64,000 bases of DNA. It comes from a bacterium (lineage in GTDB: Bacteria > Actinomycetota > Acidimicrobiia > Acidimicrobiales > Bin134). The position numbers and the translations under genes are program-made. The notes under the pieces are model-generated. The model worked only from the letters and a program-made list of their open reading frames with translations. It did no database searches and had not been told where the DNA came from. Positions 37,032 to 42,257 of this stretch are shown one piece after another (the first letter of the stretch is position 1; every line of letters begins with the position of its first letter). The stretch covers positions 1 to 64,000 of the forward strand of contig JAPPMA010000106.1 of the NCBI GenBank assembly GCA_028819295.1, read 5' to 3'.

Positions 37032-39263
37032 GTGTCACCGGCTGCGCTTACCGAGGGCCTGAACCCGGCCCAGATCGACGCGGTCACTCATCCCGGAGGC
37101 CCCATTCTGGTGGTCGCCGGTGCCGGCTCGGGCAAGACCCGCGTCCTCACCCACCGCATTGCCTACCTCATCGACCAACAGCACGTTTCCCCCTTCGCCC
37201 TCCTCGCCATCACCTTCACCAACAAGGCGGCCCAGGAGATGAAGCACCGGGTGGGCGCCCTCGTGGGCCCGGTGGCCGACAAGATGTGGGTGAGCACCTT
37301 CCACTCGGCCTGCGCCCGGATTCTGCGCTACGAGGCCGAGGCCATCGGCTTCCCCTCCAGCTTCACCATCTACGACCAGGCCGACTCGGTGAGGCTCACT
37401 CGCTACATCTGCCGGGATTTCAACCTCGACCCAAAGCGGATGCCGCCCCGGTCAATCCATGCCGCCATCAGCGCGGCCAAGAACGAGATGATCGGCGTGG
37501 CCCAGTACAAGGACCGAGCCTCCAACCTGTTCGAGCGCCGCATCGGCGAGGTCTACGACGAGTACCAGCAGCGCCTGCGCCGGGCCGGGGCCATGGACTT
37601 CGACGATCTCCTGGGCACCACGGTCGACCTCTTCCGACAGCAGCCCGACGTGCTGGACCGCTACCGCCGCCGATTCGAGCATGTGCTGGTGGACGAGTAC
37701 CAGGACACCAACCAGGTGCAGAACCAGCTCGTGCTGCTGCTGGGCCAAAAGCACCGCAATGTGTTCGTGGTGGGCGACGCCGACCAGTCGGTGTACCGCT
37801 TCCGGGGGGCCGACATCCGCAACATCTTGGAGTTCGAGCGGGCCTTCGAGGACGCCACCGTGGTGCTGCTGGAGCAGAACTACCGCTCCACCCAGCGCAT
37901 TCTGAGTGCGGCCAACGCGGTGATCGCCCACAACCTCAGCCGCAAGCCCAAGAACCTGTGGACCGACCAGACCGGCGGCGAGCCCATCGTGCGCTTCTGC
38001 GCCTCCGATGAGTATGAGGAGGCTCGCTGGGTGGCGCGCGAGGCGTTCCGGCTCCACGACGACGAGCAGTTCCGCTGGGATGAGATGGCCGTCTTCTACC
38101 GCACCAACGCCCAGAGCCGGGTGGTGGAGGAGCTGCTGATGGAGGCCGGCGTTCCCTACCAGATCATCGGCGGCACCCGGTTCTACGACCGCCGGGAGAT
38201 CAAGGATGCGCTGGCTTATCTGCGGGTGACAGTGAATCCCGGTGACGCAGTCAGCCTGCTCCGAGCGCTGAACACCCCTAAGCGGGGGGTGGGCGACGGG
38301 TCGGTGGCCAAGCTGGTGGCATGGGCCGATGCCCATGGCCTCACGTTGATGGACTCCTTGGCCCACGCCCCGGAAGCCGGTGTGAGGGGGCGGGCCCTGA
38401 GCGGCATCAACGCCTTTCTGAAGGTGATCGCCGAGGCCCGCGAGAAGCTGGACGACGGCCCGGTCGCGGTGCTGGAGCACTTGCTGGAAGCCAGCGGGTA
38501 CCTTGATCAATTAGAGGCCGAGGCGGCCAGCGAGACCACGGGGGAGACCGATGTGAGCGTGCAGGCCCAGGGGAGGCTGGAGAATCTCGACGAGCTGATC
38601 AGCGTGGCCTCAGAAAGCGACAACGTGAGCGACTTCCTCGAGCTGGTCAGCCTGGTGTCAGACACCGACGAGATGACCGACGATTCCATGCTGACGCTTA
38701 TGACCCTGCACTCGGCCAAAGGCCTTGAGTATCCGGTGGTGTTCTTGATCGGCATGGAGGAGGGCATATTCCCCCACATCCGCTCAATCACCGAGCCCGA
38801 CGAGCTGGAGGAGGAGCGCCGCCTCGCCTATGTGGGCATTACCCGAGCCCGCCAGCGGCTGTACCTGACCCACGCCTGGACCCGCAACGTCCATGGCGCA
38901 TCGATGTACAACGCGCCTTCCCGGTTCTTGGAAGAGATCCCCGAAGAGCTAGTCGACAACCGGGGCAGCAGCCGATCCCGCATGCGCCAGTCTGGATATG
39001 GCCGCGCAACCGACCAGGAAGCCCGCGTCTTCGCCGGGCGGGAGCGGGCGGTGGATGCCGCCCTGGTCGCTCGCCCCCCAGTTGAAGCCGACCCCAACCC
39101 GGCCCATCTCGCGGTAGGCGACGACGTAAACCACTCCACCTTCGGCCTCGGGGTGGTCACCGACGTGAAGGGGACCGGCGGCGACGCCGAGATCACCGTC
39201 AATTTCACCACCGCCGGCTCCAAAGTACTCATGGCCTCTTATGCCCGCCTGGAAAAAGTCTGA
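37032..39263 (+). CDS. pcrA: ATP-dependent DNA helicase PcrA/UvrD
   Basis: A 743-residue superfamily I 3'-5' helicase used in excision repair and replication-fork maintenance. It shows Q motif LNPAQIDAV, motif I VVAGAGSGKTRVL, motif II VDEYQDTN, motif III VGDADQSVYRFRGA, motif IV LEQNYRST, motif V TLHSAKGLEYPVVFLIGMEEG and motif VI RLAYVGITRARQRLYL. The C-terminal end has the Tudor-like VGDDVNHSTFGLGVV region. GTG start at 37032. Length typical. Confidence 0.96.
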   Translation: MSPAALTEGLNPAQIDAVTHPGGPILVVAGAGSGKTRVLTHRIAYLIDQQHVSPFALLAITFTNKAAQEMKHRVGALVGPVADKMWVSTFHSACARILRYEAEAIGFPSSFTIYDQADSVRLTRYICRDFNLDPKRMPPRSIHAAISAAKNEMIGVAQYKDRASNLFERRIGEVYDEYQQRLRRAGAMDFDDLLGTTVDLFRQQPDVLDRYRRRFEHVLVDEYQDTNQVQNQLVLLLGQKHRNVFVVGDADQSVYRFRGADIRNILEFERAFEDATVVLLEQNYRSTQRILSAANAVIAHNLSRKPKNLWTDQTGGEPIVRFCASDEYEEARWVAREAFRLHDDEQFRWDEMAVFYRTNAQSRVVEELLMEAGVPYQIIGGTRFYDRREIKDALAYLRVTVNPGDAVSLLRALNTPKRGVGDGSVAKLVAWADAHGLTLMDSLAHAPEAGVRGRALSGINAFLKVIAEAREKLDDGPVAVLEHLLEASGYLDQLEAEAASETTGETDVSVQAQGRLENLDELISVASESDNVSDFLELVSLVSDTDEMTDDSMLTLMTLHSAKGLEYPVVFLIGMEEGIFPHIRSITEPDELEEERRLAYVGITRARQRLYLTHAWTRNVHGASMYNAPSRFLEEIPEELVDNRGSSRSRMRQSGYGRATDQEARVFAGRERAVDAALVARPPVEADPNPAHLAVGDDVNHSTFGLGVVTDVKGTGGDAEITVNFTTAGSKVLMASYARLEKV

Positions 39264-39344
39264 GTTTCTCCATGTTGCTTTCCTTGTTTGGGACAAGAGG
39301 AGTGGGAAGGCTCGCAGAGCGCAACGGCTTGCTACGGTGGCGTT

Positions 39345-40055
39345 GTGGAGTTGAGCCAGGCGCAGTGGGGGTCAGTCAGCTCGTTTGCCGTGAGAATTGC
39401 CCACTTTACGGGGTGCGTAGCGGAGGCTCACCGTTTGGGGCATGGGCCCGGGGAGTCTCGGAAGCCTTGGGGGATGGGTTTCCAGCGTCGTGCCTGCTTG
39501 ATCTACGCGCAAACGCTGCGAGCCGAGTATCTGCGGGGCGTCGCCGATGTGAGCGGGTACTGCGGTGGGCTGATGGAGAGCGCCGAGCTGGAAGATGGGA
39601 TCGCAGCCGATTGGAAGATCACCGCGGAGTTCCTGCGCTCCACATCGGCGGCCTTGCTGGAGATGCCGGAGGTGGCGAAGGTTGTGCGTGTGACGGGCAC
39701 CGCGGAGATCGGGTCGGTGTCTCCGGCGGTATTGCGGTATGAGCAGTTTGCCGATTTGCTGCATCCGGCGGGCGTCGCCCGGCTGGAGGAGGCGGCCGAG
39801 GCGGTGGCGCGCTTTTGCAAGCTGCGATTGGAGGTGGTGCCAACCGCCCAGGAGGTGGAATGGCTCATCTCTGTAGCCGCCCAAGAGCCGGTAGCGGAAC
39901 TCGCTGAGCGCAACTCGACGTCGGTCAGGGGCATGTACCGGCTCTTGGAGGCCATGTGGTCCCGACTCGGTGTCAACAACCAGGTTCAAGGGGTGGCATT
40001 GGCAGTCCAGCAGGGCTGGATTGCTCCGCCTCCGGCAGAGGTTCGCGACTCCTGA
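39345..40055 (+). CDS. LuxR-type HTH protein, tandem paralogue 1
   Basis: A 236-residue protein from GTG 39345. The C-terminal ~65 residues (EVEWLISVAAQEPVAELAER ... LGVNNQVQGVALAVQQGWI) follow the LuxR/GerE helix-turn-helix. The N-terminal ~150 residues have no known sensor domain but share with its neighbour the motif EAHRLGHGPG followed by a helix with QRRA. It is 35 bp upstream of the related gene. Likely a transcription regulator with an undescribed N-terminal domain. Confidence 0.65.
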   Translation: MELSQAQWGSVSSFAVRIAHFTGCVAEAHRLGHGPGESRKPWGMGFQRRACLIYAQTLRAEYLRGVADVSGYCGGLMESAELEDGIAADWKITAEFLRSTSAALLEMPEVAKVVRVTGTAEIGSVSPAVLRYEQFADLLHPAGVARLEEAAEAVARFCKLRLEVVPTAQEVEWLISVAAQEPVAELAERNSTSVRGMYRLLEAMWSRLGVNNQVQGVALAVQQGWIAPPPAEVRDS

Positions 40056-40090
40056 CTGCCCGCCTCGTTGCAGGGGCCTATGCTTGGTGG

Positions 40091-40798
40091 GTGCGCGTCG
40101 GCGACCGGCAGTTCGAAGTGATTCTGAGGCATGCTGTCCCTATCGAGCGGTACGCCACTCGGATTTCCGAGGCGCACGGACTGGGGCACGGCCCTGGCAG
40201 CTATGCGAACATCTGCGATCTGGAGCTTCAGCGCAAGGCCCGAGAAGTGTGGAAGGAGACGCTCCCGCCGCCTTTTCTGAGCAGTGTGGGCGACTCCTAT
40301 GGGCGTTGCGCACAGCTTATGGGCGCAGTGCTGCCCGATGGCTCTGCCGAAGGTGATTGGGACGTCGTGTGCCGGTACTTGGGGGCGGTCGCGACCGTGA
40401 TGGCTGAAGACTCCGACCTTGGGATACCCGAGGTGCCGCCCGGGAGCGCCGATATCAGGGAGATGCCGGCCGTGATCCACTACGAGAGTCTGGCCGAGCT
40501 GATGCACCCCGATGCTGCGGTTGGGCTGCGGTCGGCATCTGCGGCTGTGGGGCGATATTGCCGATTCGCCGGACAGTCAGCACCCGATGAGACGCAACTC
40601 GCCTGTTTGCAGGGATTGGCCAACGGGGAGAAGCACGCCGACCTCGCCGTGCGGCTGGGATACTCAGAGCGTCATCTCCAGCGGATCCTCGCCGACATGT
40701 GGCACCAGTTCGGCGTAAACGGCACCATAGAAGGCGTGGCACACGCCGTCGCCCAAGGATGGGTAACGGTGCCCGAGTCGTCGCCCAAGGATGGGTAA
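40091..40798 (+). CDS. LuxR-type HTH protein, tandem paralogue 2
   Basis: A 235-residue protein from GTG 40091, paralogous to the gene before it: EAHGLGHGPG near residue 27, and a C-terminal LuxR-type HTH (LACLQGLANGEKHADLAVRL, GYSERHLQRILADMWHQFGV). This HTH is closer to the family consensus than that of the first paralogue. The last codons lie in a 32-bp tandem repeat, which sets the current stop. Function as a regulator is inferred from the HTH. Confidence 0.68.
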   Translation: MRVGDRQFEVILRHAVPIERYATRISEAHGLGHGPGSYANICDLELQRKAREVWKETLPPPFLSSVGDSYGRCAQLMGAVLPDGSAEGDWDVVCRYLGAVATVMAEDSDLGIPEVPPGSADIREMPAVIHYESLAELMHPDAAVGLRSASAAVGRYCRFAGQSAPDETQLACLQGLANGEKHADLAVRLGYSERHLQRILADMWHQFGVNGTIEGVAHAVAQGWVTVPESSPKDG

Positions 40799-40844
40799 CG
40801 GTGCCCGAGTCGTCGCCCAAGGATGGGTAACGGTGCCCAAGTCG
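40754..40844 (+). repeat. 32-bp tandem repeat, nearly three copies
   Basis: Units beginning CAAGGATGGGTAACGG start at 40754, 40786 and 40818; the first two are identical and the third diverges at its end. Because 32 is not a multiple of three, the second unit is read in another frame and supplies the TAA stop of the upstream gene. There are no spacers, so it is not a CRISPR. Confidence 0.92.
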
Positions 40845-40845
40845 T

Positions 40846-40989
40846 TCAATTAACACTCCGAATGGAGCGAACCATATTGGCAGTATCTGGAACGACAATA
40901 AAGGCGAGCAGCACGACGACGATTGCCAAAGCCGCGAGCAGCACGAAGAGAATTGTCAAAGCACCTGTTTGTTGTCTGGTGACGGTCAT
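40846..40989 (-). CDS. Small single-span membrane protein
   Basis: A 47-residue protein starting at ATG 40989 after a strong GGAGGA site 7 bp away; an upstream ATG at 41049 is in the same frame. One long hydrophobic helix (LTILFVLLAALAIVVVLLAF) with short polar ends. No known family. A paired palindrome lies 126 bp upstream and is duplicated before the next minus-strand gene, suggesting common control. Confidence 0.6.
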   Translation of the reverse strand: MTVTRQQTGALTILFVLLAALAIVVVLLAFIVVPDTANMVRSIRSVN

Positions 40990-41114
40990 GGATTGTCCTC
41001 CACTGGATTTTTTTGACGATCGTGTTCGTCTGAGTGTGTAATTTGCCATTTGTCTACCATTCCCTATCTACTTGAATCATACAGGGGCTGTGCGTCGGTG
41101 TTAGCCAAAAATGT

Positions 41115-41150
41115 TGTCAAAACATGACAAGTTTATGTCATGTTTTGACA
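41115..41150. promoter_or_regulatory. Paired palindrome, copy A (TGTCA-N5-TGACA twice, 21 bp apart)
   Basis: Two TGTCA-N5-TGACA palindromes at 41115-41129 and 41136-41150. Each is symmetrical by itself and they are also inverted relative to each other, so the whole 36 bp forms a perfect 15-bp-arm hairpin with loop AGTTTA. The start-to-start spacing of 21 bp is two helical turns, as for side-by-side repressor dimers. It lies upstream of the small membrane protein gene. Confidence 0.75.
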
Positions 41151-41218
41151 AAACGAGGTTGAGGAAAAGGCAAAAGAGCGGCTGGTTTTGCGGATACTGC
41201 TCAGGGCCAGCGGGCAGC

Positions 41219-41362
41219 CTAGTGGTGTGTCGCAGAAATAATCGCGCGTGTCCTGCTAGTGGTGTGTCTTGGGTTTAGTCGCGCGTGTCCTGCTAGGCAT
41301 CGCCGCCCCTCGCTGCGTTGCGCCTCCTTGCCTAGACTGGGGTATGGCTGCGTCGGCGCGCC
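41219..41362 (+). repeat. Dispersed repeat, copy 3, with partial tandem duplication
   Basis: A full unit (41256-41362) preceded by a second partial unit (41219-41259) sharing the CTAG junction. It ends GGCGCGCC like copy 2. It supplies the C-terminal codons and stop of the minus-strand gene at 41256-41687. Confidence 0.88.
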
Positions 41363-41687
41363 TTGCGAGGAACGCCGCTGCCGTCGCAATCCACGGCGCT
41401 AAACAGTGAAGATGTGTGCGGGGCGGGCCGTCGGCGTCAAGGGCCCAGGGAGCGAGTATTGATCCGATCACCAGGTTGTCGTTGCTGACGAAGACGGCTC
41501 CACCGTTGTCCAAGCTCACCACAGAGATGTCTTGGTCGAGGTCGAGTTTCACGGTGTAGGACTTCGGTGCTTGGGTGTTTTCGAAAACGGCCATCATCCT
41601 TTGTTCTGGCTGTGTGGCGGATTCCTGCGGGCAGGACTCCGGCCAGATGTAGCGTTCATTCGAAGATACCGAGAATCGAATTGGCAT
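41256..41687 (-). CDS. Hypothetical protein whose 3' end runs into the dispersed repeat
   Basis: A 143-residue frame from ATG 41687. The first ~85 residues look like genuine coding sequence (MPIRFSVSSNERYIWPES, KLDLDQDISVVSLDNGGAVF, NDNLVIGSILAPWAL); the last ~40 are translated from the repeat and are not protein-like, so the gene appears truncated by the repeat. No known domain. An ATG at 41738 inside the paired palindrome is a less likely start. The paired palindrome copy B lies 15 bp upstream, well placed as an operator. Confidence 0.45.
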   Translation of the reverse strand: MPIRFSVSSNERYIWPESCPQESATQPEQRMMAVFENTQAPKSYTVKLDLDQDISVVSLDNGGAVFVSNDNLVIGSILAPWALDADGPPRTHLHCLAPWIATAAAFLARRADAAIPQSRQGGATQRGAAMPSRTRATKPKTHH

Positions 41688-41701
41688 GGGACTAAAACGA
41701 G

Positions 41702-41737
41702 TGTCAAAACATGACAAGTTTTTGTCATGTTTTGACA
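41702..41737. promoter_or_regulatory. Paired palindrome, copy B
   Basis: Same structure as the element at 41115-41150: TGTCA-N5-TGACA at 41702-41716 and 41723-41737, again 21 bp apart. Thirty-five of 36 bases match copy A (loop AGTTTT instead of AGTTTA). It lies 15 bp upstream of the minus-strand ATG at 41687. Confidence 0.75.
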
Positions 41738-41786
41738 CTTGACAAGGCTGAGACCAGGGTATAGGGAGCGTGTTCTGCTGATTTGC

Positions 41787-42257
41787 TCAGGGGCCGTCGT
41801 TGGCGTTCACATCCACGATGAGGTCGCCGTCGTCCACCCACACCCCGAACTGGGTCAGGCCCTCGCCGGTGGCCGAGTACACCAGGGTGGGATCGCAGGT
41901 GTCCACGAACAGCCGCCGCTTGGCGTTCCAATCGACCACGCAATCACCGCTCGCCCCGGGCGACTGCACGTCGAAGGCGAACCACCCAACCTCGGGATCG
42001 CCGCCGATGTGGTTGATCCAGATGCTGCGCCCCCGGCTCAGCGGGGCCCACGGCACCGGCCCCCGGTTGGTGATCTCGGTGGCCAGGTTCTCGGCGTCGC
42101 CGGCGTTGAAGTCGTCGTCGCCCAGCTTCACCTCGATCTGGTCGGAGCCGGCCAGCGACACCACGGCGAACACAAGCCCCACCCCCAGCCCGATGCTGAT
42201 CACGGAGTAGACAACCGCTCGCAGCGGTGTGATCTTGGGGCCAGATGCGACGGGCAC
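41787..42257 (-). CDS. Membrane-anchored hypothetical protein
   Basis: A 156-residue protein with one membrane helix at residues 15-36 (VVYSVISIGLGVGLVFAVVS) and an outward-facing domain rich in Asp and Gly with two cysteines (GDCVVDW and VDTCDPT) that may form a disulphide. FNAGDAENLATEITNRGPVPW recalls small actinobacterial proteins of unknown role encoded beside central-metabolism genes. Divergent from sucC, 123 bp away. Confidence 0.7.
   Translation of the reverse strand: MPVASGPKITPLRAVVYSVISIGLGVGLVFAVVSLAGSDQIEVKLGDDDFNAGDAENLATEITNRGPVPWAPLSRGRSIWINHIGGDPEVGWFAFDVQSPGASGDCVVDWNAKRRLFVDTCDPTLVYSATGEGLTQFGVWVDDGDLIVDVNANDGP

Follow-up and report, generated by a model that had tools for sequence, protein, structure and literature searches.

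The locus raises the question of what two almost identical palindromic elements are for. In the window, i.e. the complete stretch of 64,000 nucleotides that was analysed, element 1 (PAL1; positions 41115–41150, minus strand) and element 2 (PAL2; positions 41702–41737, minus strand) differ at a single one of their 36 positions, located in the spacer (AGTTTA/AGTTTT). Each element consists of a perfect 15-bp inverted repeat, composed of TGTCAAAACATGACA, a 6-nt spacer and the reverse complement, and the arms reach 16–18 bp when the inverted repeat is extended. The motif TGTCA-N5-TGACA starts at positions 41115, 41136, 41702 and 41723, which is a distance of 21 bp within each element. These coordinates confirm the sequence-only reading of the locus, which had described two 36-bp elements, identical at 35 positions, with paired sites 21 bp apart. 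It had overlooked that each site of a pair reads as the reverse complement of the other, so that each element is one larger dyad: every 15-bp arm is itself a TGTCA-N5-TGACA dyad, nested in the larger one. In a scan of the window allowing one mismatch, all four matches were exact, while shuffled sequences led to an expectation of 1.4 at ≤1 mismatch.

The full site pair was found at only two places in the 3.56-Mb assembly (108 contigs), even when three mismatches were allowed, and a reversed-pattern control gave no match in the whole 3.56-Mb genome; therefore, the pair is not a random genomic feature. Random occurrence over the genome, named in the sequence-only reading as the first part of what would speak against it, is thus false. 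Rfam covariance models applied to the 64-kb window detected three tRNAs only, and the elements matched no known RNA element. When 84,980 species genomes were scanned for the exact site, the only records returned were consistent with the genus of the window (Acidimicrobiia, Acidimicrobiales, 'marine group bacterium Sva0996' and one bacterium MAG record), and viral contigs gave no match and hence no sign of a phage site. Within the genus, the exact form (≤1 mismatch) is present in 8 of 22 genomes. Including variants, 30 element loci were collected from this one genus (Sva0996-type Acidimicrobiia), and the arms are kept in them although the flanks drop below 65% identity and the spacer ranges from 5 to 7 nt.

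In the window, both elements lie in an island between pcrA and geneX (39263–41787), which is variable within the genus. Several members lack the luxR pair and the elements there, other members carry different secreted-protein genes between pcrA and geneX, and in several genomes without the luxR pair at this place, pcrA and geneX are close together with no element between them. The position of element 2 is common to most island-bearing members. At L077, L078, L081 and L088, elements are located directly upstream of luxR1 in divergent orientation. Near-identical pairs of secreted-protein genes were also observed at different loci of two genomes (L069:4953-6270 in G021 and L065:5230-6547 in G003), which suggests a recent transfer or duplication of modules.

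Element 1 precedes a small membrane protein gene (40846–40989, minus strand; 47 aa, single-pass), of which it is the predicted operator. The placement before this gene, given in the sequence-only reading, could be confirmed, with an ATG at 40989 and the ribosome binding site GGAGGA (40996–41001, minus strand) upstream of it. Relatives of this protein exist in G004 and G010 (78.6% and 59.5% identical), one of them encoded directly behind an element. Element 2, the same predicted operator, had been placed before a hypothetical gene. It does head a gene, a phospholipase-like one, but this gene is decayed: positions 41600–41427 (minus strand) are 89.7% identical to codons 159–216 of an intact phospholipase-like protein of G004, so that the open reading frame 41256–41738 was rejected as an intact gene. 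What is left of this secreted phospholipase-A2-like gene has lost the signal peptide region by deletion and also lacks the 3′ end. The remnant is truncated by a copy of a MITE-like dispersed repeat (41256–41404) of about 150–170 bp with the inverted ends CTAGTGGTGTGTCTTGGGTTTA...TAAACCCAAGACACACCACTAG. Using positions 40850–41780 as query, 59 DNA matches were obtained in the own genome, nearly all of them to this repeat.

For the analysis of the flanking regions, elements were oriented by a conserved CTTGACA on one flank, while element 1 of the window, which does not have CTTGACA, was oriented by its gene. On the gene side, a sigma70-like promoter is present at a fixed distance (TTGnnn at +11 to +16, a 17-bp spacer and TAnnnT at +34 to +39). 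Among 19 non-redundant flanks (<65% shared identity), TAnnnT was found at offset 34 in 16 and at any other of 52 offsets in at most one, and TTG at offset 11, giving the 17-bp spacer to TAnnnT, was found in 10 of them. The sequence TTTT at +5 to +8 is also conserved. For element 1, these positions correspond to a −35-like hexamer CTAACA (41099–41104, minus strand; +11 to +16) and a −10 hexamer TATGAT (41076–41081, minus strand; +34 to +39) with a predicted transcription start near 41069, and a separate consensus promoter scan called the same promoter (41104–41076). The −10 hexamer of element 2 is TATCTT (41663–41668, minus strand; +34 to +39); the start at 41687, which had been proposed for the hypothetical gene, falls between the predicted −35 and −10 of this promoter and is not a real gene start. 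The gene-side promoter has a weak −35 and a good −10. Assuming a start 7 bp after the −10, simple arithmetic places the dyad centre at −63.5 and the arm centres at −53 and −74. The element is located wholly upstream of the −35 and overlaps neither the −35 nor the −10 nor the predicted start, and fixed distance, helical phase and position fit an activator operator of the class I type.

The outward flank of element 2 (41738–41767, plus strand) contains C-TTGACA-N17-TAnnnN, which is present in most copies; in the form C-TTGACA-N17-TAnnnG, this flank could act as a promoter in the divergent direction. At four loci it points toward luxR1, but in the window toward the 3′ end of geneX, where it would transcribe antisense to geneX, toward sucCD. 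As an ancestral pcrA promoter it was rejected, since TTGACA...TAnnnG is absent upstream of pcrA in relatives without an element there.

The genes behind the elements encode one kind of product. The nearest promoter-side gene specifies an N-terminal hydrophobic segment (signal-peptide-like or membrane) in 24 of 24 distinct cases, with start codons picked by eye, compared with 10 of 43 genes of the window (p = 1e-10). Among these products are HExxH proteins similar to M10/M12 metalloproteases, for which the Pfam matches stay below the cut-off, trypsin-like proteins that carry a GDSGGP motif, a protein with a prokaryotic phospholipase A2 domain (PF09056, E 1.8e-7), lipoproteins and small membrane proteins such as that of the window.

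A candidate for the regulator, already suggested from the sequence, is encoded next to the elements. luxR1 (39345–40055, plus strand), with a LuxR/NarL-type C-terminal HTH, and its paralogue luxR2 (40091–40798, plus strand; 31% identical) are arranged in tandem. Three copies of a 32-bp tandem repeat (40747–40845) extend across the 3′ end of luxR2 and duplicate C-terminal codons. In a PDB profile search with the LuxR-like family, all 12 matches were LuxR/NarL regulators, with weak scores (best E 0.006), and the C-terminal domain of an AlphaFold model matched GerE/VraR/LiaR domains (TM 0.7–0.8 of the target, Foldseek probability 1.0). The Pfam GerE model scored below its cut-off and was reached by just 2 of 12 family members at E values up to 0.5. 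According to the profile search and the structural model, the pair is a member of the LuxR/NarL family by its GerE-type tetrahelical HTH. The N-terminal part is modelled as all-helical with moderate confidence and without a recognised fold; its 160 residues gave no Pfam match and no receiver or autoinducer-domain match, and a whole-chain Foldseek search gave no full-chain match (E values >0.4). Therefore, the pair was classified neither with the quorum-sensing LuxR proteins nor with the response regulators.

Comparison of 22 genomes of the genus connects this pair to the elements. luxR genes or fragments are present in 13 of them, and the main form of the element occurs in 10 of these 13 but in none of the 9 genomes without luxR (Fisher p = 4e-4, ignoring phylogeny). 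With all variants counted, the numbers are 11 of 13 and 0 of 9 (Fisher p = 1e-4, again ignoring phylogeny). In G001 and G014, which have luxR genes or fragments and no element, contigs are short or the genes are broken. Full-length, solitary luxR relatives in other families of the order have no such element nearby, which speaks against the assignment, and 15 loci with full-length homologues outside the genus contained no related element above a reversed-sequence control. A regulator encoded elsewhere could equally co-occur with the element.

Also, divergent luxR pairs are accompanied by elements that are altered symmetrically on both arms, with CACGAC in G004 and G016, GACGAC in G009 and G011, and GAGGAC/CCGGAC in G016 and G019. 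The CAT, CAC and GAC classes retain the inverted repeat, with 12 double-change cells and none of 500 shuffles as high, a count that is inflated by related rows. In the GAG/CCG class (G016/G019) the middle of the stem is unpaired, while TGTC-N7-GAC is kept in each arm, a pattern that speaks for two dyads bound by protein rather than for a hairpin. The recognition helix of LuxR2 reads RH(L/F)QR with CAT, RH(V/I)QR with CAC and GAC, and RQLRR with GAG. With the few classes available, this tracking of luxR lineages and LuxR2 recognition helices by operator sequences is suggestive only. At L062:5564-6280 in G016, the pair has given way to a single gene that begins like luxR1 and continues like luxR2, and the accompanying element has a 5-nt spacer and CACGAC arms.

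Taking these comparisons as a basis, the elements are probably a class-I-type activator operator of a predicted LuxR1/LuxR2 regulon. Support was computed from the repeat architecture, the restriction to one genus, the fixed promoter spacing, the exported products, the co-occurrence with luxR and the symmetric variants. The element qualifies as a regulon operator, since it recurs before genes that are unlinked yet related in function, and in genomes that also have the regulator. The proposals of the sequence-only reading that it is a protein-binding site with helical phasing and that the LuxR pair is a candidate regulator thereby gain comparative support, the latter from co-occurrence in the 22 genomes and from operator variants that go with regulator clades. 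Binding by LuxR1/LuxR2, activation and dimer stoichiometry are what we infer from these patterns. Two LuxR-like dimers, either homodimers or a LuxR1/LuxR2 heterodimer, would bind the two 15-bp arms with the core TGTC-N7-GAC, which would sit on the same face of the DNA two helical turns apart. Bound near −63.5, the regulators would bring RNA polymerase to a promoter whose −10 is good but whose −35 is weak. Exported proteins would make up the regulon, namely proteases, a phospholipase-like protein, lipoproteins and small membrane proteins. In the window, element 1 would control the gene of the 47-aa membrane protein, and element 2 would be an operator-promoter that has outlasted the decay of its secreted-enzyme gene.

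The sequence-only reading had named a repressor as one possibility, and silencing of the exported-protein genes by the LuxR pair or another protein is the alternative that survives best, although we regard it as unlikely. Palindromic sites often bind repressors, an upstream roadblock or loop is possible, and the element abuts the outward TTGACA, so that outward transcription could be repressed. The gene-side −35, −10 and start are nevertheless clear of the element, the weak −35 resembles that of activator-dependent promoters, and a dyad centre near −63.5, wholly upstream of the −35, is the position of an activator. LuxR/NarL proteins mostly activate from such upstream positions.

It is improbable, more so than repression, that the elements act as intrinsic terminators or insulators in which a 16–18-bp hairpin and a short T run stop read-through from upstream. 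A hairpin had been considered from the sequence, and the RNA fold is indeed strong (−29.5 kcal/mol, z = −6.7). Under a loose rule both elements are called terminator-like on the minus strand, the TTTT downstream of them is conserved, and the end of geneX lies some 50 bp upstream of element 2. Intrinsic terminators, however, have a G+C-rich stem followed by at least about six T and stand at gene ends, whereas here only 5–6 of 16–18 pairs are G-C and the T run, just 4–5 long, begins 5 nt past the 15-bp repeat. The stem sequence is conserved at about 30 sites despite diverged flanks, which is unlike terminators, and its middle is unpaired in the G016/G019 class. The transcript predicted for its gene does not include the element, copies of which also stand between divergent genes (L077, L078, L081 and L087), where there is nothing to terminate, and exact promoter spacing would not be expected of a terminator. 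Mobile-element ends or insertion relics, with matching hairpins bounding 41115–41737 as had also been proposed, are very improbable: several relatives have nothing between pcrA and geneX, and modules of element and gene are seen at several loci, but at most of these unrelated loci the element stands alone, always before an exported-protein gene in one orientation relative to it and with no partner at the other boundary, an unsystematic look revealed no transposase or target duplication, and what separates the two elements of the window is the remnant of a gene together with an unrelated MITE-like repeat.

The proposed activator operator shares several features with known systems. LuxR/NarL activators with lux-box-like operators (TraR, LuxR, DosR, VraR) have the same kind of C-terminal HTH and short dyads upstream of sigma70-like promoters, and are often activators. 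In contrast to these, the pair described here consists of two ancient paralogues in tandem without a receiver or autoinducer-domain match, and its operator is not a lux box at −42.5 but a pair of dyads nested in a larger one, with the centre at −63.5. To our knowledge, TGTC-N7-GACA differs from known lux boxes. Class I activator-dependent promoters (CRP at −61.5) are alike in a palindrome at nearly equal distance, a fixed helical phase and a weak −35, but involve another protein family and one dyad instead of two 21 bp apart, and the start used for comparison here is a predicted one. In exoenzyme regulons of the LuxR type, too, one regulator family governs secreted proteases and lipases along with further exported proteins. 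These regulons differ in that the host here is an uncultured member of the Acidimicrobiia, the regulon varies between species, its modules are scattered and partly decayed, and no autoinducer synthase was identified in a search not targeted at it. No relevant description of a matching LuxR operator for secreted proteins came up in searches of the literature.

A tentative extension, which we consider conceivable and somewhat doubtful, is that operator, promoter and leader spread together as a cassette and thereby bring new exported-protein genes under the control of one regulon, that a LuxR1/LuxR2 heterodimer reads the nested four-half-site operator, and that parallel rewiring of regulator and operator specificity (CAT, CAC, GAC, GAG) allows one genome to run two insulated copies of the system (G009, G011, G016).

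For an uncultured marine lineage of actinobacteria associated with sponges and sediments, the analysis provides a concrete, testable regulon consisting of a predicted regulator pair, an operator with its natural variants and exported hydrolases. Thereby, operator-based discovery of exported enzymes in symbiont genomes becomes possible, and the natural series of co-varying regulator-operator pairs can be used for work on specificity.
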